Part shown: positions 3,715 to 36,122 of the stretch, one piece after another
Position numbering within the stretch: the stretch's first letter is position 1
Layout of the letters: each line of letters starts with the position of its first letter
Source: Pseudomonadota bacterium
GTDB lineage: Bacteria > Pseudomonadota > Gammaproteobacteria > Burkholderiales > Burkholderiaceae_C
DNA length: 36,122 nt
Reading direction: 5' to 3'
Assembly: GCA_018242005.1 (NCBI GenBank)
Contig: JAFECU010000270.1
Span: forward strand, 1 to 36,122
Position numbers and translations under genes: made by a program
The notes under the pieces: generated by a model
What the model was told of the DNA's origin: nothing
What the model saw: only the letters and a program-made list of their open reading frames with translations
Database searches by the model: none

Positions 3715-4109
3715 TTTGCTTCTGTAGTGATAGCTGCCTGCGCAGAGCTGTAGCGGGTTGGCTCAACTAAATCCTGCAAATAGTCTGTCTGCAGGTCCGC
3801 CTCGCCCGAGCCCAGGTGGATTGGCCTCGGGATGCCCTGCGGCCCCAGGGGCACGGCCACCACGTCCATCTTGGCCGCATCTTCCTGCGCCAGCCAGCGC
3901 GGCAGCGCCGCCAGGCCGCGGCTGCTCGCGACCATCTGCAGCATGATGTCCGTCGTCTCAATGGTCTTGTGCTGCAGCGGCGCGACGCCCGCGGGCAGGA
4001 GGAACCGGGTGTAGATGGCAACCCTGTCGGTGGCCCCGGGGTCGGTGATGGGCACCGCCTGCGCCAGCCGCTGCGGCCGGCGGACATGGGCGCTGCCCGC
4101 AAGCGCATG
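3705..4109 (-). pseudogene. Remnant of a LysR-type (MetR-like) transcriptional regulator
   Basis: On the minus strand, about 115 codons from 4109 down to 3765 match the C-terminal half of the effector-binding domain of MetR-like LysR regulators. The order is HALAGSAHVRRPQRLAQAV, then IYTRFLLPAGVAPLQHKTIETT, MLQMVASSRGLAALPRWL, VPLGPQGIPRPIHLG, and finally DYLQDLVE. The winged-helix DNA-binding domain and the first part of the effector domain are absent. The open frame continues upstream to 4217 but shows nothing LysR-like. The last residues, down to the stop at 3705, are encoded by repeat copy G. MetR activates methionine-synthesis genes in gamma- and betaproteobacteria, but no metE or metH is nearby. 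I read this as a truncated, non-functional gene left by deletion. The rest of the 3715-4353 gap (4110-4300) holds nothing I recognise. Confidence 0.75.
3718..3777 (+). repeat. Intragenic/intergenic 26-bp-module element, copy G
   Basis: The 26-base module is at 3718-3743 (GCTTC, eight bases, TAG, CTGCCTGCGC), with a tail to about 3777. It begins three bases after the stop codon of the preceding lyase gene. On the other strand it supplies the last codons of the decayed MetR-like reading frame, whose homology stops at about 3765. The module aligns without gaps to copies A-F in this window. Confidence 0.6.
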
Positions 4110-4303
4110 GGCACTATCATCAAGACTGCCGATGTCACGCTCGATTGAGGCGGCTGGCCGGCCCCGATGCAATTCGGGCGCAGGCGCCTGTCGGCCCGTC
4201 GATTTCTGCGGCACCACGCCCGCTATCGCCCCGGCAGTGGCTGCTTGCAGCGCGCCGGATGCCCGCCGGCGGCCGGGCGTTCAGGCTGTGCATGTAACCC
4301 ATT

Positions 4304-4332
4304 TTGTGCAAAAATAGAAACCCGATTACATA
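4304..4332 (+). promoter_or_regulatory. Weak candidate promoter for pyk
   Basis: TTGTGC (4304-4309) and TACATA (4327-4332) are separated by exactly 17 bases and lie in the only AT-rich stretch before pyk. Each hexamer matches its consensus at only three positions, so this is a tentative call. A start near 4339 would leave a very short leader containing GAAAGAGA, a fair ribosome-binding site for ATG 4354. Confidence 0.3.
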
Positions 4333-4353
4333 CAACGGACTCACGAAAGAGAC

Positions 4354-5796
4354 ATGACCATGCGAAGCCGCCGCGCCACCAAAATCGTCGCCACCCTGGG
4401 CCCCGCCTCCAGCGACCCGCTGCTGCTGGAGCAGATGATCGCCGCGGGAGTGAATGTGGTGCGCCTGAACTTCAGCCACGGCAAGGCACGCGACCATGTG
4501 GAGCGTGCCGCCCGGGTGCGCGAGGCGGCGCAGCGCGCCGGGCGCGAGGTGGCCATCATGGCCGACCTGCAGGGCCCCAAGATCCGTGTGGGCAAGTTTG
4601 CCGAGGGTCGCGTGATCCTGGAGGTGGGGCAGCCCTTCGTCCTCGATGCCTCGCGCACGGAGCCCGGCGACCTGCAGGGCGTAGGCCTCGACTACAAGGA
4701 GCTGCCGCGCGACGTGAAGGCCGGCGACATTCTGTTGCTCAACGATGGCCTGATCGTGCTGACCGTGAACGCCGTACGCGGCGAGGCCGTGCACACCACG
4801 GTCAAGCTCGGCGGCGAGCTGTCCAACAACAAGGGCATCAACAAGCAGGGCGGGGGCCTCACGGCGCCTGCGCTCACGGCCAAGGACATGGAAGACATCA
4901 AGACCGCGATGAGCTTTCAGGCCGACTACGTGGCCGTGAGCTTCCCGAAGAACGCCACCGACATGGAGATGGCGCGCCAGCTGTGCAACGTGGCGGCGGC
5001 CGATTTCCGCCACAAACCGGGGCTGATTGCAAAAATCGAGCGCGCCGAGGCCATCCCGCGGCTGGAGGAAATCCTGCGCGTCTCCGACGGCATCATGGTC
5101 GCGCGCGGCGACCTGGCCGTGGAGGTGGGAAATGCCGCCGTGCCCGCGCTGCAAAAGAAGATGATCCGCATGGCGCGCGAGATGGACAAGGTTGTCATCA
5201 CCGCCACGCAGATGATGGAGAGCATGATCACCAACCCCGTGCCCACGCGCGCCGAGGTCAGCGACGTGGCCAATGCCGTGCTCGACGGCACCGATGCCGT
5301 GATGCTCAGCGCCGAGACCGCAGCCGGCAAGTACCCGCTGGAGACGGTGCAGGAGATGGCCAAGATCTGCGCCGCCGCGGAGGCCGCCGAGGACCCGGAC
5401 CGCGACGCCGACTTCGACGGCGAGACCGCGGGCCGCATCGACCAGTCCGTGGCCATGGGCGCGCTGTTCACGGCTCACCACCTGGGCGCCAAGGCCATCG
5501 TGGCCATGACCGACAGCGGCTCCACGGCCCTGTGGATGAGCCGCCACCGCATCCACATTCCGATCTACGCGCTCACGCCCAAGGTGACTACGCAGCGGCG
5601 CATGGCCATGTTCCGCAACGTGCGCCCCCTGCTCATGGACACCAGCGCGGACCGCGTCACGGCGCTGGCCCAGGCCGAGAACCACTTGAAGGCGCGCAAC
5701 ATCGTGCAGCAGGGCGACCTGTACGTGATCACCTGCGGCGAGCCCATGGGCGCGCCGGGTGGCACGAACATGCTCAAGATCTGCCGGGTGCAGTAG
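4354..5796 (+). CDS. pyk: Pyruvate kinase
   Basis: A 480-residue pyruvate kinase, of normal bacterial length, which converts phosphoenolpyruvate and ADP to pyruvate and ATP as the last step of glycolysis. The N-terminal barrel starts with [24 protein letters not shown] and [10 protein letters not shown] (substrate and nucleotide contacts). [11 protein letters not shown] is the B-domain entry. The active-site helix signature is [16 protein letters not shown], followed by [15 protein letters not shown] and [11 protein letters not shown]. The C-terminal effector domain ends at [11 protein letters not shown] 4354 is favoured; ATG 4360 is two codons inside. An intrinsic-terminator-like hairpin (5884-5916) follows, before the aldolase gene, so the two glycolytic genes are adjacent but probably not simply co-transcribed. 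Confidence 0.97.
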
Positions 5797-5877
5797 GGTC
5801 TGGCGGTCATGGCGCGGTCCTGCCCGGATGGCCCGGCAGGGCGGTGGGCGATCGCGGGGGCGATGCTGGCGGGTGGG

Positions 5878-5883
5878 TAGAAT
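5878..5883 (+). promoter_or_regulatory. Candidate -10 box for the aldolase gene
   Basis: TAGAAT in the context GGGTAGAATCGG, a -10 hexamer matching five of six consensus positions. I see no acceptable -35 at 16-18 bases upstream. The same TAGAATCGG string occurs before leuS (3450-3455 of the 30-kb block, i.e. 33450-33455), which supports it as a real promoter element. A start about seven bases downstream would fall inside the hairpin at 5884-5909. Confidence 0.4.
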
Positions 5884-5916
5884 CGGCGGTTACCAAGCGG
5901 TTACCGCCGCGTTTTT
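5884..5916 (+). terminator. Terminator-like hairpin between pyk and the aldolase gene
   Basis: CGGCGGTTACC (5884-5894) pairs with GGTTACCGCCG (5899-5909) at 10 of 11 positions around the loop AAGC, followed two bases later by five T residues (5912-5916). It has the form of an intrinsic terminator for pyk, but it also lies immediately after the TAGAAT box, so it could sit at the 5' end of the aldolase mRNA. Confidence 0.6.
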
Positions 5917-5942
5917 CCCAACCTTCGAACGGACCCACCACC

Positions 5943-7007
5943 ATGCCTCTCGTCTCGATGCGCGAACTGCTCGACCATGCCGCCGACAACGGCTATGGCA
6001 TTCCCGCCTTCAACGTGAACAATCTGGAGCAGGTGCAGGCCGTGATGGCCGCCGCCGATGAGGTGGGGGCGCCCGTCATCCTGCAAGCCAGCGCCGGCGC
6101 ACGCAAATACGCGGGCGAGAGCTTCATCAAGTACCTGATTGCCGCCGCCGCCGAGGCTTACCCGCATATCCCGCTGGTCATGCACCAGGACCACGGCACT
6201 TCGCCCGCCGTCTGCCAGGGTGCCCTGCACCTGGGCTTTGGCTCGGTGATGATGGATGGCAGCCTCAAGGAAGACGGCAAGACGCCGGCCGACTTCGACT
6301 ACAACGTGGGCGTGACGCGCCAGGTGGTCGAGATGGCGCACAGGGTTGGTGCCACGGTCGAGGGCGAGCTCGGCTGCCTGGGCAGCCTGGAGACCGGTGA
6401 GGCCGGGGAAGAAGATGGCATTGGCGCGGCCGGCAAGCTCAGCCACGCCCAGATGCTGACCGACCCCGAGGAGGCCGCGCAGTTCGTGAAGGCCACGCAG
6501 CTCGACGCGCTGGCGATTGCCATCGGCACGAGCCATGGTGCCTACAAGTTCACGCGTCCGCCCACGGGCGACGTGCTGGCCATCTCGCGCGTCAAGGAAA
6601 TCCACGCCCGCATTCCCAACACCCATCTGGTGATGCATGGCTCGTCTTCCGTGCCGCAGGACCTGCTGGACATCATCAACCAGTTCGGCGGCAAGATGAA
6701 GCAGACCTACGGCGTGCCGGTCAAGGAGATCCAGGAAGCCATCAAGCATGGCGTGCGCAAAATCAACATCGACACCGACATCCGCATGGCGATGACCGGT
6801 GCGGTACGCAAATTCCAGGCCGAGAACCCCGACAAGTTCGACATGCGCGAATGGATGAAACCCGCACGCGAGGCCGCCAAGGCAATCTGCAAGCAGCGCT
6901 ACCTTGAATTCGGTTGCGAAGGCCAGGCCGCCAAGATCAAGGGCCTGCCCCTGGCCGACATGGCGGCACGCTATGCCGCCGGTGCGCTGCGCCAAGTCGT
7001 GAACTGA
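5943..7007 (+). CDS. fba: Class II fructose-1,6-bisphosphate aldolase
   Basis: A 354-residue zinc-dependent aldolase that interconverts fructose 1,6-bisphosphate with dihydroxyacetone phosphate and glyceraldehyde 3-phosphate in the cytoplasm. The start [27 protein letters not shown] is the family N-terminus. The metal-binding and catalytic segment is [10 protein letters not shown], followed by [10 protein letters not shown]. Phosphate-binding loops are in [21 protein letters not shown] and [14 protein letters not shown]. Length and features match the Calvin-cycle-like subgroup (about 350 residues) common in betaproteobacteria. ATG 5943 is the first methionine of the homologous region; the frame is open for a long way upstream in an anti-pyk frame without homology. 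A strong terminator follows at 7057-7082. Confidence 0.96.
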
Positions 7008-7056
7008 CGCCAATTCCCCCGGAAGCTGCCCGTAATTTGCGCGGGAAGACGATCTT

Positions 7057-7082
7057 CGGCAGCCATCGTGCTGCCGTTTTCT
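7057..7082 (+). terminator. Intrinsic terminator after the aldolase gene
   Basis: CGGCAGC (7057-7063) pairs perfectly with GCTGCCG (7070-7076) around the loop CATCGT and is followed directly by TTTTCTTT. It lies 50 bases after the stop codon and closes the pyk-aldolase block. Confidence 0.85.
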
Positions 7083-7160
7083 TTGGTTACGGCGCTGCAT
7101 CATGTAAGCTCATGGTCAGCATGAGCCACGCACGCTGCATGCAGGAACCCTTTTGCCTTC

Positions 7161-7877
7161 ATGAGTTTGATGATTACGACAATTCGGCGCCTGCTGCCCT
7201 GCGCCCTGGTGGTGCTGGCGGCCTGTGCACCGCTCAGCCCCGAGCCGCACTATCCCGTGGGCCGCGCGCGCCTTGCCCTGCCCCCTGGCGCCTGGCAAGA
7301 CCTAGGCGTCGCCGACGAGGCCGTTGCCACCTTGCCCGCGCCCGTGGGCCGCATTGCGCTTCAGACCCGCGCCGTGGCCCTGCGCGGCGCGCAGCAGCAA
7401 TTGCTGGCCGTGCTGCGCGTGCAGACCAATCGCGACAACTACCCCCGCGAGTCCGTGTACTGGCCCGGTGATTGCCCGCGCCAGACGGGCGTGCTGGTGG
7501 AGGACGCCACTCGCGGCAGCCCGGTGCGCGTGGACTGCCTGCGCCTCAAGCGCTGGGCAGGCAGTGCGCAATGGCTGGAGAAAAGCGAACCCGATTTCGC
7601 GCAATGGCTGGAGCAGCACAAGCTGGCGCTGGACAAACCCTATTCCTACCTGAGCTACCGCTACGCCAGCACGGGCGGAGCCCTGGTGCAGGTCGATGCC
7701 CTGGTGGACCAGCGGCTGCTGACCCCACGCGTGCGCAACAACGAGGAATTTTTGCTGGCAGGCCGGCCCGCGCTGCAATGGGGCCACGACCTGAGACAGG
7801 CCGTGCGCGTGAGCACCGGCATGATGGACGGTTACCTGGCCATTCCGCCCTTCCCGATGGCTCCACCGGTCCCATAG
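7161..7877 (+). CDS. Putative lipoprotein of unknown function
   Basis: A 238-residue protein that I do not recognise. It begins with a short basic segment and a hydrophobic stretch, [21 protein letters not shown], ending in a good lipobox (LAAC, cysteine 22), so it is probably lipid-anchored in the periplasm. The mature part has no obvious domain; it contains two further cysteines (GDCPRQ and VDCLRL) that could form a disulfide, and a proline-rich end [11 protein letters not shown]. Two starts are possible: ATG 7161 with AGGAA thirteen bases upstream, or ATG 7170 with no good site. It stands alone between the aldolase terminator and pntA, 52 bases ahead of pntA. Confidence 0.75.
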
Positions 7878-7929
7878 CGGATCGCAATGGTGGCATGGCA
7901 TAACGATCACTAAACTCGAGGAGACCCTC

Positions 7930-9537
7930 ATGCAGACCAACCCCAGCCCCCAGGCGCAACGCATAGGCGTTCCCAGGGAAATCTTCCCTGGCGAGAAGCG
8001 CGTGGCCAGCGTGCCCGACGTGGTGCAGAAACTCATCAAGCTCGGGTTCACGGTGGCCGTGGAATCGGGCGCCGGCGAGGCCGCCAACTGCAGCGACGAC
8101 GCCTATCGCGCCGCCGGCGCCGAGATCGTCAACGGGGCTGCGGCGCTGTGGGCGTCGTCGGACATCGTGCTCAAGGTGCGCCCGCCCAGCGAGGCTGAAG
8201 TGGCGCTGATGCGCGAAGGCGGCACGCTCATCGGCTTCGTCTGGCCCGCGCAGAACCCCGACCTGATGCAGCGGCTGGTTGCCCGCAACGCCACCGTGCT
8301 GGCCATCGACTGCCTGCCGCGCACGCTCTCGCGCGCGCAGAAGATGGACGCGCTGACCTCCACCGCGGGCGTCTCGGGCTATCGCGCCGTCATCGAGGCG
8401 GCCAACGCCTTTGGCCGCTACTTCAACGGCCAGATCACGGCCGCGGGCAAGGTGCCGCCGGCCAAGGTCTTCATCGCCGGCGCCGGCGTCGCGGGCCTGG
8501 CGGCCATCGGCACGGCGGCCAACCTGGGCGCCATCGTGCGCGCCAACGACACGCGCGCCGAGGTCGCCGACCAGGTCAAGTCCCTGGGCGGTGAATTCGT
8601 CAAGGTGGACTACGAGGAAGAAGGCTCGGGCGGCGGCGGTTACGCCAAGGTCATGAGCGAGGGATTCCAGGCGGCGCAGCGCAAGATGTACGCCGATCAG
8701 GCCAAGGATGTGGACATCATCATCACCACTGCCCTGATCCCCGGCAAGCCGGCTCCGAAGCTCATCACCGCCGAGATGGTGCAGAGCATGAAGCCCGGCA
8801 GCGTGATCGTGGACATGGCCGCCGAGCAGGGCGGCAACTGCGAGCTGACCGTGCCCGGCGAGGCCGTGGTGCGCCATGGCGTGACCATCATCGGCTACAC
8901 GGACCTGGCCTCGCGCCTGGCCAAGCAGTCCTCCACCCTGTACGCCACCAACCTGCAGCGGTTGATGGAGGAACTGTGCAAGGCCAAGGACGGGCAGGCC
9001 GTGGTCAACATGGAGGACGACGCCATCCGCGGCCTCACCGTCATCAAGGACGGCGCCATCACCTGGCCCGCGCCGCCACTCAAGGCCCCACCGGCACCGG
9101 CCCCCAAGGCGGCCGCCGCGCCCGTGGCCGAGAAGAAGAGCGGGCACGGACATGGCGCCGGTGCGCCCATGTCGGCCAAGGCGCTCACCATCGTCTTCGC
9201 CGTGGCCGCCGTGCTCTTCTGGCTCATAGGCGCCTATGCGCCCGCAGCCTTCCTCGGTCATTTCACGGTGTTCGTGCTGGCCTGCTTCATCGGCTACATG
9301 GTGGTGTGGAACGTCACGCCCGCGCTGCACACGCCGCTCATGAGCGTCACAAATGCCATCTCCAGCATCATCGCCATCGGCGCGCTGGTGCAGATCGCGC
9401 CACCGGAGGCCGGCGCCAACGGACGCCCGGACGGGCTCATCCTGTGGCTGGCCTTTGCCGCACTGGTGCTCACGGCCGTCAACATGTTCGGCGGCTTTGC
9501 CGTCACGCGCCGCATGCTGGCCATGTTCCGCAAATAA
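7930..9537 (+). CDS. pntA: NAD(P) transhydrogenase subunit alpha
   Basis: A 535-residue, full-length PntA of the E. coli type: the NAD(H)-binding domain I and the membrane part of the alpha subunit are one polypeptide instead of split PntAA and PntAB. The N-terminal lobe begins [23 protein letters not shown]. The Rossmann motif is [13 protein letters not shown], followed by [12 protein letters not shown] and [13 protein letters not shown]. An Ala/Pro linker with a His/Gly-rich stretch (about residues 380-410) leads to four membrane helices in the C-terminal 120 residues, including [21 protein letters not shown]. The enzyme couples proton flow to hydride transfer from NADH to NADP+ at the inner membrane. 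It starts at ATG 7930 behind GAGGAGAC (7918-7925), and pntB follows after 27 bases. Confidence 0.97.
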
Positions 9538-9564
9538 GAACGACAAGCACAAGGAAACAAGAAC

Positions 9565-10977
<1,413 letters not shown>

Positions 10978-10997
10978 CGAGGCATAATCACAAAAAA

Positions 10998-11009: not shown

Positions 11010-11057
11010 TGATTTATTTCGGCACGGTTTTACCTCAACAGCTCAGGAGACCCGAAC

Positions 11058-12737: not shown

Positions 12738-12741
12738 ACAA

Positions 12742-12860
12742 CCCCCTGAGCTGCTTCGCAGCTTCCCCCTTCTCTCGGCTATCGCCGGGAAGGGGGACGA
12801 CGCCAGCGCGGCGGGGCGGCCCTTGCGCGGCGTCTGCTGAGATGGGGCGCGCCAGTTTTA
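12742..12860. repeat. Dispersed hairpin repeat, family 2, copy 2
   Basis: Same architecture as 2711-2820: CCCCCTGAG, hairpin AGCTGC-TTC-GCAGCT, TCCCCCTTCTCTC, inner stem CGGC/GCCG, GGGAAGGGGGACGA, GC-rich tail ending GCGCGCCAGTTT. Both the small hairpin and the inner stem differ from copy 1 on both sides of the stem while keeping pairing and the TTC loop. It separates fadD from the nucleosidase gene. Confidence 0.8.
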
Positions 12861-12882
12861 TGCCGGTCGCCTCTAATCGCCC

Positions 12883-13644
12883 GTGACCACCGCCATCCTC
12901 AGCGCCCTGCCGGAAGAGCAGGGCAGCCTCATGCACGCGCTGCACCACCCCGAACGTATCGAGCGCGCGGGCCGCAGGTTCTGGCGCGGCGAGCTGTACG
13001 GCCAGCCCGTGGTGCTGGCTCTGTCGGGCATAGGCAAGGTGGCGGCGGCCACTACGGCGACCTTGCTGGCCGAACGTTTTGCCGTCACGCGCATGGTGTT
13101 CACCGGCGTGGCAGGCGGCCTGGGCGATAGCGTGCAGGTGGGCGACGTGGTGGTGGCACAGGACTATCTGCAGCACGACATGGACGCCTCGCCCCTCTTC
13201 GCCCGCTGGGAACTTCCCGGCTATGGCCTGGCGCGCATGCCCTGCGATACGGCCTTGACCACTGCATTATTTGCAGCTGCAAGCGCTTATCTGGCAATGG
13301 GTGGTGCCGGTTTTGAGCCAAAGAATGCGGCCGTCACCCGCGGCCATGCGGCGCGCGCGCACCGGGGCTTGATCGTCAGCGGCGACCGCTTCGTCTGCAC
13401 CTCGGCCGAATCTGCCGCGCTGCGCCAGGCGCTCGCCGCGGCCGGCCACGCGGTGCTGGCCGTGGAGATGGAGGGCGCGTCCGTGGCGCAGGTCTGCCAC
13501 GACTACGGCCTGCCGTTTGCCGCCGTGCGCACGATCTCGGACCGCGCCGACGACAGCGCGCATGTGGACTTTCCCCATTTCGTCACCCATGTCGCCAGCC
13601 GCTATTCCGACGGGATCGTGCATGAGCTGCTCAGGTTGCTATAA
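12883..13644 (+). CDS. mtnN: 5'-methylthioadenosine/S-adenosylhomocysteine nucleosidase
   Basis: A 253-residue MTA/SAH nucleosidase, which removes adenine from methylthioadenosine and S-adenosylhomocysteine in the cytoplasm. Family motifs are AILSALPEEQGSL (catalytic Glu region), LSGIGKVAAATTATLL, FTGVAGGLGDSVQVGDVVVA, the purine-site loop LIVSGDRFV, AVEMEGASVAQVC, and AVRTISDRAD with the catalytic Asp. The start is GTG 12883; there is no convincing ribosome-binding site. It is about 20 residues longer than the E. coli enzyme, and the excess lies between LTTALFAAASAY and GLIVSG. That segment coincides with repeat copy B (13261-13319). The stop codon TAA is contributed by another copy of the same element (copy A, from 13638). 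Confidence 0.93.
   Translation: MTTAILSALPEEQGSLMHALHHPERIERAGRRFWRGELYGQPVVLALSGIGKVAAATTATLLAERFAVTRMVFTGVAGGLGDSVQVGDVVVAQDYLQHDMDASPLFARWELPGYGLARMPCDTALTTALFAAASAYLAMGGAGFEPKNAAVTRGHAARAHRGLIVSGDRFVCTSAESAALRQALAAAGHAVLAVEMEGASVAQVCHDYGLPFAAVRTISDRADDSAHVDFPHFVTHVASRYSDGIVHELLRLL
13261..13319 (+). repeat. 26-bp-module element, copy B, inside mtnN
   Basis: Module 13261-13286 (ends CAG, CTGCAAGCGC) plus tail ending at about 13319 (GGTTTTGAGCC). It aligns to copy C without gaps over the core and the whole tail. It is read in the host frame as TALFAAASAYLAMGGAGFEP, the stretch by which this enzyme exceeds its relatives. Confidence 0.6.
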
Positions 13645-13693
13645 AAACAATAGGTGCTTGCGCTTATCCATAAAGCATCAGAGCCAAAACCGG
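13638..13693 (+). repeat. 26-bp-module element, copy A, at the 3' end of mtnN
   Basis: Module 13638-13663 (GCTAT, eight bases, TAG, GTGCTTGCGC) and tail to about 13693 (ending AGAGCCAAAAC). It aligns without gaps to copy C, with about 30 of 48 bases identical. Its sixth to eighth bases form part of the TAA stop (13642-13644) of mtnN. Confidence 0.65.
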
Positions 13694-13705
13694 CTGGAAA
13701 TCGGA

Positions 13706-21457: not shown

Positions 21458-22456
21458 CTATCCCGCGGCAGCGGCGCGCTGCAGGCGGTCGCGCACGCCC
21501 TCCCAGTCGGGGCTGTCGGGCGGGGTTTCTATCCAGATGAGTTTCACGCCCGCGTCGTCGAAGCCGCGCAGGGTGGCAAACAGCTGCTGCGCCGCGGCGG
21601 CGGCATCCTGGGGCATGCGGCGCAGCATGACCTTGGCGGATGCCGAGCGCAGCGCGGCGCGCGCATACACGGCCAGGTGGGCGGCGTCGGCGCCCAGCAC
21701 GTCCAGGCCGGCCTGCAGCTGCCGCGCGTCCATGAGGCGCACGCGCGCCGTTGGTGCGTAATGTGCCAAAAGCGTGCCTGAGGCACGCGGGGTATGCGCT
21801 GTAAGCTCTTCTTTCGATAGTGGTGCAATGCCGCAGACGCGCTGCACGTCGGCGCGCGAGATGGCGCCGGGGCGCAGCAGCACGGGCACGCCGCGCGTGC
21901 AGTCGATGATGGTGGACTCGATGCCCACGGCGCAGGCGCCGCCGTCGAGCACCGGCAGCGCCGCGCCAAAGGCCTCGGCCACATGCCGGGCCGTGGTCGG
22001 GCTGACCTTGCCGAACAGGTTGGCGCTGGGCGCGGCCACGCCCCAGACGGGCGGGTCAAGCCGCTGGCAGGCCGCGAGCACGGCGTGAGCCACCGGGTGG
22101 GCCGGGCAGCGCAGGCCCACGCTGTCCTGCCCGCCCGTGGCGGCGCGCGCCGCCTGCGGCAGGCGCGGCAGGATGAGGGTCAGCGGGCCGGGCCAGAAGG
22201 CGTCGATGAGCTGCTGGGCGAACAGCGGCACCTCCTTGGCGTAGTGGGTGATGGCGCCGCTGTCGGCCACATGCACGATCAGCGGGTGATTGGCGGGCCG
22301 GCCCTTGGCGGCAAAGATCTGCGCCACGGCGGCGTCGTTGTCGGCGTCGGCCGCCAGGCCGTAGACGGTCTCGGTCGGCAGGCCCAGCAGCTCGCCGCGC
22401 GCCAGCTGCTGGGCGGCGGCCTGCACCGAGGCGTCCAGGCGTCCGTCGAGAATCAT
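21458..22456 (-). CDS. tsaC: L-threonylcarbamoyladenylate synthase, Sua5 type
   Basis: A 332-residue two-domain Sua5 protein: the YrdC catalytic domain (about 1-205) and a C-terminal Sua5 domain. It makes threonylcarbamoyl-AMP from threonine, bicarbonate and ATP for t6A in tRNA. Signatures are LARGELLGLPTETVYGLAADA, IFAAKGRPANHPLIVHV, FWPGPLTLILP, VGLRCPAHPVA, VAAPSANLFGKVSPTTA and VGIESTIIDCTRGVPVLLRPGAIS; the linker then leads to PRASGTLLAHYAPTARVRLM. ATG 22456 lies twelve bases after the purK stop, so it is in the purE-purK transcript. The interdomain segment APLSKEELTAHT coincides with repeat copy F (21796-21821). Confidence 0.94.
   Translation of the reverse strand: MILDGRLDASVQAAAQQLARGELLGLPTETVYGLAADADNDAAVAQIFAAKGRPANHPLIVHVADSGAITHYAKEVPLFAQQLIDAFWPGPLTLILPRLPQAARAATGGQDSVGLRCPAHPVAHAVLAACQRLDPPVWGVAAPSANLFGKVSPTTARHVAEAFGAALPVLDGGACAVGIESTIIDCTRGVPVLLRPGAISRADVQRVCGIAPLSKEELTAHTPRASGTLLAHYAPTARVRLMDARQLQAGLDVLGADAAHLAVYARAALRSASAKVMLRRMPQDAAAAAQQLFATLRGFDDAGVKLIWIETPPDSPDWEGVRDRLQRAAAAG
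21770..21821 (-). repeat. 26-bp-module element, copy F, inside tsaC
   Basis: On the minus strand the module runs 21821 to 21796 (ACTAT, eight bases, GAG, CTTACAGCGC), keeping the exact spacing of the family, with a less certain tail to about 21770. It lies in the linker between the YrdC and Sua5 domains and is read in a different frame from copies B, C and D. Confidence 0.45.
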
Positions 22457-22467: not shown

Positions 22468-23637
22468 TCAGAACGGCGCGATGCCGAGAATCGCCGCCGC
22501 CTTGAGCGCCGTGGCGCGCACGGCCTCGGGCGTGGCGCCGGTCACGTTCAGGTGGCCCATCTTGCGCCCGCGCTTGGCATCGCGCTTGCCATACAGGTGC
22601 AGATGGCAGCCGGGCAAGGCCAGCACCTGCGCCCAGTCGGGCGTGACGGGCTGCTCGCCCTGGGCGAACCACAGGTCGCCCAGCAGGTTGAGCATGATGG
22701 TCGGGCTGTGCAGGCGCGGCTGCACCAGGGGCAGGCCGGTCATGGCGCGCAGCTGCAGCTCGAACTGCGACACGTCGCAGGCGTCCTGGCTGTAGTGGCC
22801 GCTGTTGTGCGGGCGCGGGGCGATCTCGTTGACGACCAGACTACCGTCCTGCAGCACGAAGAACTCCACGCACAGCACGCCCACGTATTGCAGGCCGTTT
22901 GCTACGGATTTCGCAGCTGCCAGCGCATGGTCCATCTGTGCTGGAGGCAGATTTCCTTCAAAGACCTCGGTCACGGCCAGAATGCCGTCGCGGTGCAGGT
23001 TGCGCTGCACGGGCAGGTGCACGACGCTGCCGTCCTGGCCGCGCGCGACGATGACCGAGCATTCGTGCGCCAGCGGCAGCATCTTCTCGAGCACGCAGGG
23101 CACGCGGCCCAGGTCGTCCCAGGCGGCGGCCAGGTCGGCAAGGGTCTGCACCCGCACCTGGCCCTTGCCGTCGTAGCCCATGCGCGCGGTCTTCAGAATG
23201 CCGGGCAGCAGATCGCCCGTCACGGCCGCCAGCTGACCGGGCGTCGCTATCACCGCATGCGGCGCCACGGGCACGCCGCAGCGCACGAAATGCGCCTTCT
23301 CGGCCGCGCGGTCCTGGGCGATGGCCACGGCGCTGCCCGCGGGCGATACGCGCAGGGTCTGCGCCAGCCGGTCCAGCGATGCGGCGGGCACGTTCTCGAA
23401 TTCGGTGGTGACGGCCGCGCACAGCCGCACCATCTCGGCCAGGCCCTGCGGGTCCTCGTAGCCCGTGCGTATGTGGTGGTGGCTCACCAGACCGGCGGGG
23501 CTGGTGGGGTCGGCGTCCAGCACCACGGTGAAGTAGCCCATGGCCTGGGCCTCCTGCACCCACATGCGCCCGAGCTGCCCGCCGCCGAGCACGCCCAGCG
23601 TGGCGCCGGGCAGGATCACGTCGCCCGCGCCGCTCAT
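22468..23637 (-). CDS. purK: 5-(carboxyamino)imidazole ribonucleotide synthase PurK
   Basis: A 389-residue ATP-grasp enzyme of purine synthesis that carboxylates AIR to N5-CAIR using ATP and bicarbonate. Motifs are [42 protein letters not shown], the strand pair [11 protein letters not shown] and [18 protein letters not shown], and [16 protein letters not shown] 23637 overlaps the purE stop by four bases, as is usual for purEK. The segment [21 protein letters not shown], just before YVGVL, is on the complement of repeat copy E and is a few residues shorter than in relatives known to me. Confidence 0.95.
22901..22955 (+). repeat. 26-bp-module element, copy E, antisense in purK
   Basis: Module 22901-22926 (GCTAC, eight bases, CAG, CTGCCAGCGC) and tail to about 22955, where GCTGGAG and ATTT align without gaps to copy C. 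It is in the opposite orientation to purK, so the encoded peptide differs from that of the sense copies. Confidence 0.6.
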
Positions 23638-25364: not shown

Positions 25365-26273
25365 ATGATCGACGTCACCCTAGAAACCTTTGAAACCGAG
25401 GTGGTTGCCGCCTCCATGACCACCCCCGTGCTGGTGGACTTCTGGGCGCCCTGGTGTGGCCCGTGCAAGACGCTGGGCCCGGTGCTGGAGAAGCTGGAAG
25501 TCGAATACGCGGGCCGCTTCAAGCTCGCCAAGATCGACTCCGACCAGCAGCAGCAGCTCGCCGCCATGTTCGGCATCCGCAGCATCCCAACCTGCGTGCT
25601 GATGATGAACGGCCAGCCCGTCGATGGATTCATGGGCGCCCAGCCCGAGGGCCAGCTGCGCGCCTTCCTGGACAAGCATGTGCCCGCTGCGGATGAGCTG
25701 CAGGCCCAGGAGCAGGAAGAAGAGGCGCAGGACGCGCTGGCGGGCGGCGACACCGAGGGCGCGCTGGAAAAGCTCCAGGCGGCCGTGGCCACCGACCCCG
25801 CCAACGACGAGGCGCGCTTCGATTACGTCAAGCTTCTGCTGCAACTCGGCCGCGAGGACGACGCCAAGGTGGCCTTTGCGCCCGTGATCGCCAAGGCCGA
25901 GGGCTCGCGCCGCCTGGGCGCGCTCAAGGCCTGGATGGATGCTATTGACTTCGTAGCTGCTGGCGCTCATGGGGAAAGCGCTGGAGCCGAATTTGATGCA
26001 AAGATCGCCGCCAACAAACGCGACTTCGAGGCGCGCTTTGGCCGTGCGCGCTGGCTCATGGCGGGCCAGCGCTGGACGGAGGCCATGGACGAACTGCTCG
26101 AAATCCTGATGCGTGACAAGAGCTGGAACGACGAGGCCGCGCGCAAGACCTATGTGTCGGTGCTGGAGATCATCGAGCCACCCCGGGCGAAGGTGGCCGA
26201 GGGCCAGATCCCGCCCGAGGACCCGGTCGTCGCCACCTACCGCCGGCGCCTGTCCAGCGTCGTGCTCAGTTGA
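25365..26273 (+). CDS. Thioredoxin-TPR protein, CnoX/YbbN-like co-chaperone
   Basis: A 302-residue protein: an N-terminal thioredoxin fold with an intact WCGPC motif (Cys31, Cys34) in [17 protein letters not shown] and the cis-proline [10 protein letters not shown], then a helical C-terminal part with TPR-like repeats ([50 protein letters not shown], ending [14 protein letters not shown]). CnoX proteins protect substrates from aggregation and over-oxidation and pass them to GroEL. E. coli CnoX lacks the CxxC pair, so this one may be redox-active. Residues 193-211, [19 protein letters not shown], are encoded by repeat copy C and lie between two helical repeats. The following lipoprotein gene overlaps or abuts the stop. 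Confidence 0.9.
25941..25996 (+). repeat. 26-bp-module element, copy C, inside the thioredoxin-TPR gene
   Basis: The clearest intragenic copy. Module 25941-25966 (GCTAT, eight bases, TAG, CTGCTGGCGC), tail to about 25996 (AGCGCTGGAGCCGAATTTGA). It aligns without gaps to copies A, B and E over module and tail. The host reads it in frame as a 19-residue alanine/glycine-rich insert. Confidence 0.7.
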
Positions 26274-26275
26274 CG

Positions 26276-28746: not shown

Positions 28747-28786
28747 GTTGCTGGTGGATACACTTTCAGGGTTTCCGCTAGGCGTG

Positions 28787-28792: not shown

Positions 28793-28807
28793 CGTCGCTC
28801 ACTGACC

Positions 28808-29275: not shown

Positions 29276-29300
29276 CGCCGCCAGCCCACCCTCGGTCGCC

Positions 29301-30254: not shown

Positions 30255-30321
30255 CAACGGCGCGTGGCCGCTACGCTACTGCGTTGGGCGCTCTGGCGGG
30301 AAGACCGACGTACGCCGCCGC

Positions 30322-30741
30322 TCAACGCTTCTTGGCGCAGTCGGCGCACTGGCCGTACAGCGCCATGGCATGGTCATGGATGACCCAGCCCTTGGCCTGG
30401 GCGATCAGGTTCTGGCGCTTCTCGATCTCGGGGTCGTAGAACTCCTCGACCTTGCCGCAGGCGGTGCACACAAAATGGTCGTGGTGCTGGCCCTCGTTGA
30501 GCTCGTAGACCGCCTTGCCGCTCTCGAAGTTGCTGCGGATCAGGATGCCGGCCTGCTCGAACTGCGTGAGCACGCGGTAGACCGTCGCCAGGCCGATGTC
30601 CGAGCGTTCGTCGAGCAACACACGGAACACGTCCTCGGCCGTCATGTGGCGCTGGGTGCCCTTCTGGAAGATCTCCAGGATCTTTAGCCGGGGCAGGGTG
30701 GCCTTGAGGCCGGTGCTCTTGAGTTCGTCGATGTTCGTCAT
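30322..30741 (-). CDS. fur: Ferric uptake regulator Fur
   Basis: A 139-residue Fur. The winged helix contains [51 protein letters not shown]; the metal/dimer region contains [23 protein letters not shown], and the C-terminal pair is CADCAKK. It represses iron-uptake genes when Fe2+ is bound. ATG 30741 is preceded by AAGGA. It is divergent from bamE, separated by about 100 bases, an arrangement (fur-omlA) conserved in Xanthomonas and Pseudomonas. Confidence 0.97.
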
Positions 30742-30814
30742 GACAAGGTCCTTCTGGTGCCAGGGCGAAACTGGCCGGGAGAGCCCTGCCGCCTGTACGC
30801 AAGGCCCCGGCCGC

Positions 30815-30820
30815 TACAAT
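30815..30820 (+). promoter_or_regulatory. Candidate -10 box for bamE
   Basis: TACAAT (five of six) in GCTACAATGGCC. It overlaps the first possible bamE ATG (30819), so a transcript starting about seven bases downstream would lack that codon; the true start must be ATG 30840 or 30852. Confidence 0.5.
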
Positions 30821-30839
30821 GGCCCGGATCATATCCCCT

Positions 30840-31403
30840 ATGCCTAAACCCATGTCTGCTCTCGCCTGTTGGGGTGCCCACCGGGGCGCCATTGTGTTGC
30901 TGGCCGCCGTAATGGCTGCCGGTATGGCCGGTTGCGCGGGCACCGGCGAGCGCATCGCAAACGTCGTCACACCCTACAAGGTGTCCGTGGTGCAGGGCAA
31001 CTTCGTCTCGCGCGAGCAGGTGCAGGCGCTGCAGCCCGGCATGGGGCGCCAGCAGGTGCGCGAGATTCTGGGCACGCCGCTCCTGGTCAGCGTGTTCCAT
31101 GGCGACCGCTGGGAATATGTCTTCACGCTCAAGCGCCCGGGCGTGGAGGCACAGATGCGCAAGCTCACCGTGTTCTTCAAGGACGGTGTGATGGACCATG
31201 TCGAGGGCGACGAAATGCCCTCCGAGTCCGAGTTCGTGGCCTCGCTGGGCTCCAAGCTGTCCAAACCCAAGGTGCCGCCGCTTGAGGCCACAGAGGAGCA
31301 GCTGGCGCGCTTCCCCAAGGCCGCCCCTGCAGCTGAGCCGGCCGCCGCGCCCACGCCGCCGCCCGTGGCCAGTTACCCGCCGCTGGAGTCTCCGCGCCGC
31401 TGA
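30840..31403 (+). CDS. bamE: Outer membrane assembly lipoprotein BamE (OmlA/SmpA)
   Basis: A 187-residue BamE, a lipoprotein of the BAM complex that inserts outer-membrane barrels. The lipobox is AAGMAGC; the BamE core follows: YKVSVVQGNFVSREQVQALQPGMGRQQVREILGTPLLVSVFHGDRWEYVFTLKR and LTVFFKDGVMDHVEGD. An acidic/proline-rich tail of about 60 residues (EATEEQLARFPKAAPAAEPAAAPTPPP) extends beyond the E. coli protein. ATG 30840 is preferred because ATG 30819 lies in the -10 box; ATG 30852 is also possible. Divergent from fur. Confidence 0.93.
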   Translation: MPKPMSALACWGAHRGAIVLLAAVMAAGMAGCAGTGERIANVVTPYKVSVVQGNFVSREQVQALQPGMGRQQVREILGTPLLVSVFHGDRWEYVFTLKRPGVEAQMRKLTVFFKDGVMDHVEGDEMPSESEFVASLGSKLSKPKVPPLEATEEQLARFPKAAPAAEPAAAPTPPPVASYPPLESPRR

Positions 31404-31466
31404 AGGCCCTTGGCCTGTGGGTCGGCCGTGCCGGGCCTTCCGTTGCTGTTTTGATTGTGAGCTGAC

Positions 31467-32288
31467 ATGACCTCTACCACTTCCCCCCCCCGCCGCGTGG
31501 CCGTCGCGGGCGCGTCCGGCCGCATGGGCCACATGCTCATCGAGGCCATCTTGGCGAGCGGCGACTGCGTTCTGGCCGGCGCGCTGGACCTGGCGGACAG
31601 CCCCGTCGTGGGCCAGGACGCCGCCGCCTTCCTGGGGCGCGCCAGTGGCGTCGCCATCACGGCCGACCTGCGCGCGGGCCTGAAGAACGCCGACGTGCTC
31701 ATAGACTTCACGCGTCCCGAGGGCACGCTGGCCCATGTGGCCATGTGCGCCGAACTCGGCGTGCAGCTGGTCATAGGCACGACGGGTTTTTCCGATGCGC
31801 AGAAGGCCGCCATCGAGGCCGCCGCGCGCCGGATCGCCATCGTGCTCGCGCCCAATATGAGCGTGGGCGTCAACGTCACGCTCAAGCTGCTGCAGATGGC
31901 GGCGCAGGCACTGGCCACGGGCTATGACATCGAGATCATCGAGGCGCACCACAGGCACAAGGTGGACGCGCCCTCGGGCACGGCCCTCAAGATGGGTGAG
32001 GTCATCGCCGAGGCCCAGGGCACGCGGCTCGCCGACCGCGCCGTGTACGAGCGCTACGGCCACACGGGCGAGCGTCAGGAGGGCAGCATAGGCTTTGCCA
32101 CGGTGCGCGGTGGCGACATCGTGGGCGACCACACCGTGCTGTTCGCCGGCACCGGCGAGCGCGTCGAAATCAGCCACAAGTCCAGCAGCCGCGCCGGCTA
32201 CGCCCAGGGCAGCCTGCGTGCCGTGGGCTTCCTGGCCGGGCAGCGCGCGGGCCTGTTCGATATGTTCGACGTGCTGAGCCTCAGGTAG
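31467..32288 (+). CDS. dapB: 4-hydroxy-tetrahydrodipicolinate reductase
   Basis: A 273-residue DapB of the lysine/diaminopimelate pathway. The dinucleotide loop is [18 protein letters not shown], the substrate/nucleotide loop is [12 protein letters not shown], and the catalytic signature [20 protein letters not shown] contains the active His and Lys. ATG 31467 has only a weak GTGAG upstream. The 63-base spacer from bamE includes an AT-rich stretch (31446-31466) that may be a worn half of the 26-bp-module element. exbB follows seven bases after the stop. Confidence 0.97.
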
Positions 32289-32295
32289 CCAGCCC

Positions 32296-32958
32296 ATGGA
32301 CGGCCTGCACTGGTTGCGCCAGGGCGATGCGGTCACGCGGGCCGCGGCGCTGTTGCTGCTGGCCATGTCGGTGGCCAGCTGGGTCATCATCTTCTGGAAG
32401 CTGTACCTCATGCGCCGCGCCCATGTGGACGTGCCACGCAGCATGGCCGCGTTCTGGCAGGCGCCCTCGCTGGCGCTGGGGGCCGAGCAAGTGCAGGCTT
32501 GCGACCGCATGGCGCTGGTGCTGCCGCTGGTGCATGCGGCACGACAGATCGGCGAGGGGCGCGTGGCCAGTGCGCTGGCCAGCCAGGGCGGCCTGTCACA
32601 GCGCCTCACGCGCGTGCTGCGCGACGCGCTGCATGGCGTGCTGGGTCGGCTGCAATTCGGACAGGTGCTGCTCGCCACCGTGGGCTCCACGGCGCCCTTC
32701 GTGGGCCTGTTGGGCACGGTGTGGGGCATCTACCATGCGCTCACGGCGCTGGCCGGGGCCGAGCAGATCAGCATAGAACGCCTGGCCGGCCCCGTGGGCG
32801 AGGCCCTCATCATGACCGCCGCGGGCCTGGCCGTGGCCATTCCCGCCGTGCTCGCCTACAACTGGTTCGGCCGCGTCATCGCCCGCATCGAGGCCGACCT
32901 CGAAGGCTTTGCGCTTGACCTGCGCGAGCTGGTCATAGACACCAACGCGGCCGACTGA
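32296..32958 (+). CDS. exbB: MotA/TolQ/ExbB proton channel family protein
   Basis: A 220-residue inner-membrane protein with three membrane helices: AALLLLAMSVASWVIIFWKLYLM near the N-terminus, then FGQVLLATVGSTAPFVGLLGTVWGIYHAL, and GEALIMTAAGLAVAIPAVLAYNWF. The last two carry the MotA/TolQ/ExbB proton-channel signature. With ExbD it forms a proton-driven motor that powers TonB-type or similar transport. No tonB is near. It lies seven bases after dapB and eleven before exbD, so the four genes dapB-exbB-exbD-leuS may be read together. Confidence 0.92.
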   Translation: MDGLHWLRQGDAVTRAAALLLLAMSVASWVIIFWKLYLMRRAHVDVPRSMAAFWQAPSLALGAEQVQACDRMALVLPLVHAARQIGEGRVASALASQGGLSQRLTRVLRDALHGVLGRLQFGQVLLATVGSTAPFVGLLGTVWGIYHALTALAGAEQISIERLAGPVGEALIMTAAGLAVAIPAVLAYNWFGRVIARIEADLEGFALDLRELVIDTNAAD

Positions 32959-32968
32959 GCAGGACGCC

Positions 32969-33397
32969 ATGCCATTCGGGCGCCTAGAACGCAACCCCGG
33001 CCCGCAGCCCATGAGCGAGATCAACGTCACGCCGCTGGTGGACGTGATGCTGGTGCTGGTGGTGATCTTCATCCTGACGGCGCCGCTGCTGGCGCACAGC
33101 ATCCGCCTGAACCTGCCGCGCGCAGAGGGTGCCCAGCCCGGCGCCCCCGCGCGCGCCGTGGTGGTGGCGCTGGACGCCGCCGGCAAGATCTACCTCGACA
33201 ATGCGCCGCTCGACGAGCAGCAGCTCCCCGAGCGCCTGCGCCTGCTGGCCGCCAGCGCCCCCGACGCCGAGCTGCAGCTGCGCGCCGACAGCGCCGTGCC
33301 CTATGGCCGCGTCGCGCAGCTCATAGGTGCGGCCCAGGCCGTGGGGTTGCAGCGCATCGCCTTCGTGACCGAGCCGCCCAAGGCGGCGAAAAAATAA
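32969..33397 (+). CDS. exbD: Biopolymer transport protein ExbD/TolR family
   Basis: A 142-residue ExbD. The N-terminal cytoplasmic stub MSEINVTPLVDVMLVLVVIFILTAPLLA holds the single membrane helix with the essential aspartate (VTPLVDVMLVLL type). The periplasmic domain ends RVAQLIGAAQAVGLQRIAFVTEPPKAAKK. It pairs with the ExbB protein encoded just upstream. ATG 32969 has AGGAC upstream; an internal ATG at the MSEINV position (14 codons in) would give a shorter protein more like ExbD relatives. The 130 bases that follow contain the leuS promoter region. Confidence 0.93.
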   Translation: MPFGRLERNPGPQPMSEINVTPLVDVMLVLVVIFILTAPLLAHSIRLNLPRAEGAQPGAPARAVVVALDAAGKIYLDNAPLDEQQLPERLRLLAASAPDAELQLRADSAVPYGRVAQLIGAAQAVGLQRIAFVTEPPKAAKK

Positions 33398-33449
33398 CCG
33401 CCCGGCCCCTGGAGCTTTCCGTAATCCGATCCCGGCGAACGACAAGTCC

Positions 33450-33455
33450 TAGAAT
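33450..33455 (+). promoter_or_regulatory. Candidate -10 box for leuS
   Basis: TAGAAT in CCTAGAATCGGGC, resembling the aldolase-gene box (5878-5883) over TAGAATCGG. No clear -35. A start near 33462 would leave a leader of about 65 bases. Confidence 0.4.
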
Positions 33456-33527
33456 CGGGCGCAGCCCAGCCCATCGTGCGCACGGCGCCGGGGCAACGTT
33501 CTCCGCAGACCCTTTTTCCCAGCCTCC

Positions 33528-36122
33528 ATGCAAGACAAATACAACCACACCGAGGTGGAGCGCGCCGCGCACGCCCACTGGAACGCCCGCGACGCCTACC
33601 GAGTGACCGAGGACGCCGCCAGGCCCAAGTTCTATGCCTGCTCCATGCTGCCCTACCCCAGCGGCAAGCTGCACATGGGCCATGTGCGCAACTACACCAT
33701 CAACGACATGCTCACGCGCAGCCTGCGCATGAAGGGCTACAACGTCCTCATGCCGATGGGCTGGGATGCCTTCGGCCTGCCGGCCGAGAACGCCGCGCTG
33801 AAAAACGGCGTGCCGCCCGCCCGGTGGACCTACGAGAACATCGCCTACATGAAAAAGCAGATGCAGGCGATGGGGCTAGCCATCGACTGGAGCCGCGAGG
33901 TCGCCACCTGCGACCCCGACTACTACAAGTGGAACCAGTGGCTGTTCCTGAAGATGCTGGACAAGGGCATCGCCTACCGCAAGACCCAGGTCGTCAACTG
34001 GGACCCGGTGGACCAGACCGTGCTGGCCAATGAGCAGGTCATAGACGGCAAGGGCTGGCGCACGGGCGCGCCGGTCGAGAAGCGCGAGATCCCCGGCTAC
34101 TACCTCAAGATCACCGACTACGCACAGGAGCTGCTCGACCACGTGCAGATCGGCAACGACAAGGCGACCCTGAACGGCTGGCCCGACAAGGTGCGCCTGA
34201 TGCAGGAAAACTGGATCGGCAAGAGCGCCGGCGTGCGCTTTGCGTTCACGCACCACATCAAGGACGCGAGCGGCGCCCTGATCCAGGACGGCCGCATGTA
34301 CGTCTTCACCACGCGCGCCGACACCATCATGGGCGTGACCTTCTGCGCCGTTGCGCCCGAGCACCCGCTGGCCCAGCATGCGGCCGCCGGCAATCCCAAG
34401 CTCGCCGCCTTCATCGAGGAATGCAAGAAGGGCGGAACGACCGAGGCCGAGCTCGCGCTCAAGGAAAAAGAGGGCATGGCCACGGGCCTGTTCGTCACCC
34501 ACCCGCTGACGGGCGAGGCCATCGAGGTCTGGGTCGGCAACTACGTGCTCATGAGCTACGGCGACGGCGCCGTCATGGGCGTGCCCGCGCACGACGAACG
34601 CGACTTTGCGTTCGCGCTCAAATACGGCCTGGACATCGAGCAGGTCATCCTCGTCGATGGCGAGGCCGCCTTCGACGAACAGCGCTGGCAGGACTGGTAC
34701 GCCGACAAGGAGCGCGGCGTCACCATCAACTCCGACAACTTCAGCGGCCTGAACCACAAGGACGCCGTGGCCGCCGTGGCCCATGCGCTGCAGCACCTGG
34801 GCCTGGGCGAACTCAAGACCACCTGGCGTCTGCGAGACTGGGGCATTTCGCGCCAGCGCTACTGGGGCACGCCCATCCCCATCATCCACTGCCAGGACTG
34901 CGGCGCCCAGCCCGTTCCCGAAAAAGATCTGCCCGTGGTGCTGCCGCAGGACCTGGTGCCCGACGGCTCGGGCAACCCGCTGGTCAAGAGCGAGGCCTTC
35001 CACGCCGGCGTCACCTGCCCCTGCTGCGGCAAGAGCGCGCGGCGCGAGACCGACACCATGGACACCTTCGTGGATTCGTCCTGGTACTTCATGCGCTACT
35101 GCGACGCGCAGAACCACGAGCAAATGGTCGGCTCGGGCACCGACTACTGGATGCGCGACCCGAAGGCCGCGACCGGCGGCAGCGGCATGGACCAGTACAT
35201 CGGCGGCATCGAGCACGCCATCCTGCACCTGCTGTATGCGCGCTTCTGGACCAAGGTCATGCGCGACCTGGGCCTGGTCAAGATCGATGAGCCCTTCACC
35301 CGCCTGCTCACCCAGGGCATGGTGCTGAACCACATCTACAGCCGCCGCACGGCCAAGGGCGCCAAGGACTACTTCTGGCCGCACGACGTCGAGCATGTCT
35401 ACGACGAGGCCGGCAAGATCGTCGGCGCCAGGCTCAAGAACCCGGCCGAAAGCGGCGACGGCCTCCTGCCCGTGGGCACGCCCATCGACTACGAGGGCGT
35501 GGGCACCATGTCCAAGTCCAAGAACAACGGCGTCGACCCGCAGCACCTGATCGAGAAATACGGCGCCGACACCGCGCGCCTGTACACCATGTTCACCGCG
35601 CCGCCCGAGCTCACGCTCGAATGGAACGACGCCGCCGTCGAAGGCAGCTACCGCTTCCTGCGCCGCGTGTGGAACTTCGGCGTCAAGCTCTCTGCTATTG
35701 ATAAAGAAGCTGCCAGCGCAAGCACAGTGCGTGCAACAAGCCTGAAAGACGTCGAATTTGGCAAGGAGGCCCGCGCGCTGCGCCTGGAGATCCACCAGGT
35801 GCTCAAGCAGGTGGACTACGACTACCAGCGCATGCAGTACAACACCGTGGTCTCGGGCGCGATGAAAATGATCAACGCGCTGGAAGACTTCAAGCAGCAC
35901 GCCGACGCCGGCGCCCAGGTGGCGCTCATCGAAGGCTTCGGCATCCTGCTGCGCGTGCTCTACCCGGCCACGCCGCACATCAGCCACGCGCTGTGGACTG
36001 AACTGGGCTACGCCGGCGCCCTGGGCGAGCTGCTGGACGCCGCCTGGCCTCAGGTAGACCCGGCCGCCCTGGTGCAGGACGAGCTGGAGCTGATGCTGCA
36101 GGTCAACGGCAAGCTGCGCGGC
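33528..36122 (+). CDS. leuS: Leucine-tRNA ligase, 3' truncated
   Basis: The first 865 codons of leucyl-tRNA synthetase; the frame is open to the window edge. The class I HIGH motif is HMGH (residues 49-52) in [17 protein letters not shown]; the KMSKS motif is MSKSK at about 661-665 in [16 protein letters not shown]. The editing domain has [12 protein letters not shown] and [12 protein letters not shown], with the conserved Asp. Zinc-ribbon-like pairs CQDCG and CPCCG flank the catalytic insertion, and [19 protein letters not shown] is intact. The segment [23 protein letters not shown] (from 35694) between the catalytic core and the anticodon-binding helices is repeat copy D. The full protein is expected to be about 880-900 residues, so little is missing. 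Confidence 0.97.
35694..35762 (+). repeat. 26-bp-module element, copy D, inside leuS
   Basis: Module 35694-35719 (GCTAT, eight bases, AAG, CTGCCAGCGC) with a longer, more diverged tail ending GTCGAATTTGGC at about 35762. It is read in the same frame as copies B and C (peptide ...EAASAS... against AAASAY and VAAGAH). Confidence 0.6.

Follow-up and report, generated by a model that had tools for sequence, protein, structure and literature searches.

The 36,122-nucleotide contig JAFECU010000270.1 (our C189) of a Comamonadaceae draft genome (GCA_018242005.1; 3.96 Mb in 313 contigs), which in its entirety is called the window here, carries seven sites, A to G, of a dispersed repeat element. We are confident that these sites belong to a real repeat family and that the copy within purK (element E) originated in place. 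The sites may represent a family of imperfect-dyad DNA signals of about 60 bp, dispersed through some genera of the Comamonadaceae, for which uptake drive is the cause that we tentatively favor.

All seven sites of the original prediction, which had been described as sharing a 26-base module with fixed spacing, are present where it placed them. In the window alone, a consensus scan allowing up to 3 mismatches returned 8 matches, six of which are among the seven sites (F was absent), versus 3.49 expected. That count was equalled in 6 of 100 shuffles and is not clearly above chance. Across the whole genome, the pattern GCTAN9TAGCTGCNNGCGC gave 77 matches with at most 1 mismatch, versus 6 for the reversed pattern, which served as the control. 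With at most 2 mismatches there were 214 matches versus 80, and with exactly 2 mismatches there were 137 versus 74. The excess shrinks as the mismatch load grows, as is characteristic of uptake sequences. The genome scan that the original prediction had proposed as a check thus finds the family clearly over-represented. A chance origin was rejected on the genome count, the window count not being clearly significant by itself.

Thirty genome copies were compared together with their flanks, and most align without gaps across about 60 bases. They share an AT-rich arm (RCTAYTGAWTNNAT), a half-site (AGCTGCYNGCGCTT), seven nearly free bases, a weaker mirrored half-site (AAGCGCTRGAGSC), and a T-run, in that order. 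The 26-base module is the left half of this imperfect dyad, and the ungapped tail that had been noted for A, B, C, and E is its right arm; G and D fit the element model only with an internal indel. That model (R1; 63 positions) was built from 27 genome copies, including C and E of the window, and was run over the window with filters off. It ranks the seven sites as the top seven of ten window matches at E ≤ 10, with C and E strong, A fair, and B, D, F, and G individually weak (E of 0.02 to 0.08); the scores of C and E are not independent, since both are among the building copies. In the genome, R1 found at least 150 candidates, all at E ≤ 1 and 139 of them at E < 0.01. R1 copy counts are lower bounds, and two of the 150 candidates are the two strands of a single site. 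A further three copies above 25 bits were found in about 175 kb of flanking DNA, which, together with the 70 best matches, suggests a total of about 140 to 150 copies at that level in 3.96 Mb. The element averages 49% G+C, and its motif holds about 53 bits of information, versus about 15.7 needed to address 150 sites.

The copy antisense in purK is the best-tested genic site. Among 110 purK orthologues of the family, 108 have 32 residues between the anchors, whether they bear the element or not; the exceptions are L174 (G341), with 35 residues, and L306, with 36. In a set of 30 family PurK sequences, the sole length difference at the site was the three extra residues of G341. When DNA flanks were measured with the window as the query, 75 of 80 named loci had no length difference; four of the remaining five were alignment-edge effects according to the residue-anchor comparison, and L306 was real. 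Relatives lacking the element encode similar residues at the site with different codons; the G321 genome, for example, which has no R1 match in 6.2 Mb, encodes AAAKSVA with GC-rich codons. Rickettsia palindromic elements (RPE) form a palindromic family with copies in protein genes on both strands, and the original prediction had suggested that this repeat invades genes in the same manner. At purK, no in-frame insertion that lengthens the host protein was found, and the suggestion does not hold there. Orthologues carrying the same residues, which had been named in advance as a sign against invasion, were found for E and, to a large extent, for C and F.

Codon choice was scored (z) with a profile built exclusively from 45 intergenic copies, against recodings drawn with the codon usage of the same gene. 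By this measure, codon choice spells the element (z > 3) in 44 of the 110 orthologues, with a maximum z of 10. These are not 44 events, because the orthologues share descent and some carry identical sequence at the site (L188 and L263). Column-permuted profiles gave mean z values of 0.6 to 2.3. Among the 45 top rows, the first 41 had their real z matched by no more than 3 of 200 permutations, and the last four by 7 to 13 of 200. Synonymous identity among 20 divergent carriers was 0.717 in the element segment, compared with a gene mean of 0.637 (49th of 367 positions of a sliding segment, raised but not extreme). Among 39 noncarriers, it was 0.443, compared with 0.556 (362nd of 367).

The capacity of each protein position, frame, and strand to encode the element by synonymous choice was then expressed as a pre-fit score over about 2,200 placements. 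In 35 of 35 purK carriers with z > 4.5, the actual site was the best placement. Of the 62 orthologues with z < 2, 46 likewise had it as their best placement and 60 had it among their top ten. For 29 PurKs taken from other families of the class, none of which had a z above 1.5, the site was the best placement in 2, one of the ten best in 7, and within the top 5% in 17. The segment aligns ungapped with the solved PurK structure 4izo, and other families of the class lack just one to three residues near its edge. The purK copy arose in place, largely through codon choice, since the length is unchanged in nearly all orthologues and the site is already the best fitting in most relatives without the element. 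The PurK fold itself suits the element and the Comamonadaceae residues suit it better, which reflects either further pre-fitting or a trace of earlier occupancy. On the latter reading, a single genic copy in purK would date from the family ancestor and would have been lost by synonymous change in many lineages, leaving the residues of noncarriers as its trace. The higher rank of the site in family noncarriers than in other families agrees with such a history. However, it explains neither the synonymous letters retained by carriers nor the other sites, and the ungapped alignment with 4izo, with so few edge residues missing elsewhere in the class, also speaks against it. We regard this history as most improbable; it is compatible with drive and would merely shift its start to an earlier time.

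Among the other genic sites, the data for the thioredoxin-TPR gene (element C) point to in-place formation, as at purK. There, z exceeded 3 in 26 of 107 orthologues. The reference length was found in 21 of 23 carriers with z > 4 and in 60 of 80 noncarriers with z < 2; two strong carriers are six residues longer. The signal is weaker at the Sua5/YrdC site (element F), where the window gene has a z of 5.0, z exceeded 3 in 18 of 107 orthologues, and the length of the linker is variable. Elsewhere in the genome, copies lie in loops that are about 8 residues (DapE) and 10 to 11 residues (DapF) longer than those of solved homologues. Leucyl-tRNA synthetase at site D is 6 residues longer than 6q89, a comparison with that solved homologue only.

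All placements relative to genes rest on our own codon-usage gene calls. We classified 75 copies, namely, the 70 best R1 matches and the five other window sites, a sample in which weak copies are underrepresented. Forty-five were intergenic, 11 were at gene edges, and 19 were inside genes; by these calls, coding sequence makes up 90% of the loci concerned. In the window, five copies do lie within genes in both orientations (B, C, D, and F sense and E antisense), as had been described, but the statement that the family sits mostly inside genes is true of this window only. The intergenic copies occupy 31 tandem, 9 convergent, and 2 divergent gaps; for the remaining 3, a gene was called on just one side. 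Copies follow an upstream stop codon at a median distance of 6.5 bp (50 distances). In the tandem gaps, 16 copies run along the gene direction and 15 run opposite to it, and between tandem genes the element is strand indifferent. KOPS (FtsK-orienting polar sequences) and Chi are motifs with polarity along the chromosome. Among the best matches listed, no strand split relative to the chromosome was found in three of four genomes (G318, G302, and G300, with 38, 16, and 37 positions, respectively), and a KOPS- or Chi-like polarity was set aside; the fourth genome, G303, is considered below. Positions along the chromosome were random in all four genomes, again among the best matches listed.

The family is frequent only within the Comamonadaceae, and there in some genera, among the genomes sampled. 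Of nine family genomes, our own included, four contain the exact pattern ATAGCTGCNNGCGCTT, in 50, 79, 17, and 5 copies, and five lack it. Other families of the order were represented by 291 genomes, which have it at most once each and ten times in total. All 8 genomes of the genus have at least 75 to 150 R1 matches at E ≤ 0.001. A survey of 60 family genomes identified 17 with an R1 match at E ≤ 1e-4, 8 of which have at least 38 to 89 matches; the other 43, which include close relatives and G321, had no match at that threshold. The 80 named purK-region loci gave 61 R1 matches at E ≤ 0.5, in records from Giesbergeria, Simplicispira, Acidovorax, Rhodoferax, Comamonas, Polaromonas, and Curvibacter; the assignment of our genome to the Comamonadaceae follows from such named relatives. 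Plasmid carriage was considered and rejected, as just three plasmid records matched, all weakly (E of 0.06). One of them, the catabolic plasmid NC_004956.1 of Pseudomonas sp. ADP, has a 77% match to element C at 33899 to 33951, and the two further records are alike. In a viral-contig collection, 43 stretches (L357 to L399) contain the exact strict core pattern.

The main rival to uptake drive is direct selection on a chromosomal binding site, read by a nucleoid, replication-boundary, or termination protein, in which case selection rather than drive would maintain the sites, genic ones included. The fixed spacing, the dyad half-sites, and the strand indifference are all consistent with such a site, as are the positions after stop codons, the 9 convergent versus only 2 divergent gaps, and the synonymous letters retained in carriers. 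On the other hand, the motif holds far more information than addressing the sites needs, the chromosomal positions are random, and it would be odd for a basic chromosomal function that 43 of the 60 family genomes surveyed, some of them closely related, lack the element. We consider selection for a chromosomal binding site rather unlikely.

Copies are nearly independent of each other and have no signature of recent copy-paste. Among the 70 copies, the top pair identity across 54 columns was 0.83, which was equalled in 76 of 500 column shuffles; the spread of pair identity was high (6 of 500 shuffles), which speaks against full independence. R1 columns 39 and 40 are mostly AA or GG jointly in these copies, as if there were two element states. 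Pairing in the helix was 70.5%, versus 70.1% in shuffles; double-sided pair changes (29 of 500 shuffles) and the covariation score (45 of 500) were slightly high, and the left hairpin gave no pairing or covariation signal among the copies. A conserved RNA or hairpin element was set aside on the basis that pairing is near the shuffled level, that copies in tandem gaps are strand indifferent, and that the window has no Rfam match at gathering scores. In-place change at a pre-fitted site and the high information content would also be expected if single-stranded element copies annealed to partly matching chromosomal sites and overwrote them with no insertion. Such template patching should leave linked blocks, yet the copies appear independent in their pair identity and for most pairs of columns, and we judge it very unlikely.

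All 16 genomes tested, including those free of the element, have a Y1-transposase gene, and an R1 match above 20 bits accompanied it at only 3 of 16 loci. The gene thus occurs whether or not a genome has the element, and the element does not regularly flank it; identity with repetitive extragenic palindromic (REP) sequences and their REP-associated tyrosine transposases (RAYT) was rejected on these grounds. The element-rich genome G318 has 20 Y1_Tnp matches (e.g., L308 and L324 to L327), of which some are nearly identical and others are split between two frames, and the other 15 genomes have one each. In a gap of Giesbergeria and Simplicispira with both flanks anchored, element-free relatives were 43 to 89 bp shorter, or were 16 to 42 bp or several hundred base pairs longer with unrelated sequence. 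In the L240, L245, and L257 gaps, terminator-like hairpins were seen by eye. Differences in gap length neither prove nor exclude insertion, and some intergenic copies may be insertions. As to the original proposal that this is a mobile or formerly mobile element, neither recent copying nor regular flanking of Y1-transposase genes by the element was found.

Uptake sequences are described as having a point-mutational origin, enrichment in noncoding DNA, no orientation bias, and an excess graded by mismatch (PMC1939737 and PMC7811141), and two bacterial families are described as having strong uptake signals (PMC7811141). The element resembles the DNA uptake sequences of the Pasteurellaceae (USS, uptake signal sequence) and Neisseriaceae (DUS, DNA uptake sequence), as presented in PMC1939737 and PMC7811141, in its in-place point changes and mismatch-graded excess, in its overrepresentation in noncoding DNA relative to the share of such DNA, with genic copies in tolerant stretches, and in its strand indifference between tandem genes and restriction to related lineages. 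It differs in architecture, being a dyad of about 60 bp, whereas USS and DUS have a 9- to 10-bp core (with AT tracts in Haemophilus influenzae), and in having roughly tenfold fewer copies. Its taxon also lies outside the two families that PMC7811141 names.

The mechanism that we propose is as follows. A protein would read the double-stranded sequence, namely, the AT-rich arm, the half-site, the 7-bp spacer, the weaker mirrored half-site, and the T-run; recognition is probably at the level of double-stranded DNA. Fragments with a better match would return to genomes more often, most simply through a preference in natural transformation, and the signal would spread point by point within existing sequence and not by insertion. 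Under such drive, the signal would accumulate wherever it is tolerated by coding and regulation, namely, directly behind stop codons and in permissive segments of proteins. We infer a receptor-based drive because the motif is long, has fixed spacing, forms point by point in a tolerant coding spot, is indifferent to strand, and is restricted by genus, and it is in this guarded sense that drive is offered as a possible reason for the spread. The wider proposal, that the Comamonadaceae have a third, independently evolved DNA-uptake (self-recognition) system whose unusually long dyad motif recodes synonymous codons of essential genes in place in many genera, is more doubtful.

Several results weigh against uptake drive. 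The copy number is low, at roughly 150 in 4 Mb compared with the 1,465 to 2,206 given for H. influenzae in PMC7811141, so that a density on the order of one per kilobase, as in uptake sequences, is not reached. That the motif holds about 53 bits, although about 15.7 would suffice, is easier to explain by shared descent. The copies are not fully independent, with a nearest-neighbor identity of 0.755 versus 0.735 in shuffles (0 of 500), and total mutual information was 76.1 versus 69.6 ± 1.2, with much of it from adjacent columns. Element-free relatives often have shorter intergenic gaps, as after insertion. In Sua5, the linkers of L182 (G333) and L306 (a Polaromonas metagenome-assembled genome) have 58 and 46 residues, respectively, versus 32 in the reference, with element-like codons (z of 5.6 and 5.3); these are the best candidates for true length-adding copies. 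Finally, the best matches listed for G303 (21 positions) do show a strand split, which was equalled in 8 of 400 shuffles.

An old miniature mobile element of the REP or Rickettsia type, which in the past would have moved into gaps as well as some genes and would now persist as decayed remains, would account for the common descent that the information content suggests, for the weak linkage among columns, for the shorter gaps of element-free relatives, and for the longer Sua5 linkers. Placement after stop codons is likewise reported for REPs (PMC3733652). This origin nevertheless seems unlikely to us, given that the length of PurK is unchanged, that its carriers retain synonymous letters, that near-identical copies were not found among 70 copies, and that the Y1-transposase gene occurs regardless of the element. 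Like REPs and bacterial interspersed mosaic elements (BIME) with RAYT, as described in PMC3733652, the element is a dispersed imperfect palindrome that often lies right behind stop codons, occupies both tandem and convergent gaps, and sometimes occurs in genes. Unlike them, it is longer, its pairing hardly covaries, it has no regular association with RAYT, and it added no residues in purK. RPE and REP inserts do add residues, 20 to 30 for dimers and groups (PMC3733652). The element shares with RPE its palindromic form and its copies in protein genes on both strands and differs from RPE in that most of its copies lie outside genes and no PurK residues are added.

No published description of the element was found among the matches listed in the literature on Comamonadaceae repeats, uptake sequences, and the core sequence. 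The nearest published report is that of the Beta-proteobacterial repeat element (BRE) (Hot et al. 2011; PMC3110155), which is about 90 bp long, averages 69% G+C in Bordetella, and is often in tandem. Both repeats occur in genera of the Comamonadaceae (BRE also in Bordetella), and both have some copies wholly inside coding sequences. Identity with BRE was set aside because of length and base composition, the element having about 60 bp and 49% G+C; the two are set apart by the length, composition, and tandem habit described for BRE in PMC3110155 only. A second, GC-rich repeat (CCCCCTGAGCNNCTTCGNNGCTTCCCCCTTCTC...) occurs in two intergenic regions of the window (2709 to 2790 and 12739 to 12863). 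Its portion at 12800 to 12863 matches many places in genomes of the genus with 79 to 100% identity over short stretches. This GC-rich repeat may be the published BRE.

The seven window sites are listed in Table 1. Element C was found in all 7 other genomes of the genus and has a codon-choice z of 6.1 (L198); element E was found in 7 other genomes of the genus and has a z of 8.4 (L168). Element A provides the TAA stop codon of the phosphorylase-superfamily gene that also holds B (the open reading frame [ORF] ends at 13644), and it is present in some genomes of the genus and absent from others. The position of B is kept in 10 of 10 aligned loci of the genus (six other genomes), several of which are nearer the consensus; that of G300 is further from it. 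The 3' end of a LysR-like ORF (3705 to 4217, minus strand; Pfam LysR_substrate) carries element G in antisense orientation, directly after a gene that ends at 3714.

Table 1. Element sites in the window, with R1 scores
Element	Position	Strand	Extent	Gene context	R1 score (bits)	E value
C	25938..26000	+	Full length	Sense in thioredoxin-TPR gene, ORF 25365-26273	61	7.9e-11
E	22898..22960	+	Full length	Antisense in purK, ORF 22468-23637, minus strand, residues 226-247	56	8.8e-10
A	13635..13697	+		End of phosphorylase-superfamily gene	26.7	0.0012
B	13258..13320	+	Weak	Sense in phosphorylase-superfamily gene, ORF 12883-13644	18.0	0.08
F	21762..21824	-	Weak	Sense in Sua5/YrdC gene, ORF 21458-22456, two-domain linker	19.8	0.033
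G	3715..3767	+	Left half and shortened right part; internal deletion		20.6	0.023
D	35691..35765	+	Left half and inserted stretch	Sense in leucyl-tRNA synthetase gene, ORF 33528-36122	18.3	0.072

These findings correct the picture of gene-invading repeats, since at purK the gene already fitted the repeat. Whichever protein reads the element, a 60-bp signal superimposed on universal-gene codons across many genera biases studies of codon usage and protein evolution in these bacteria. If the uptake reading is true, a third uptake system with another architecture would mean that such signals evolve repeatedly, and it would allow a direct test of molecular drive versus selection.

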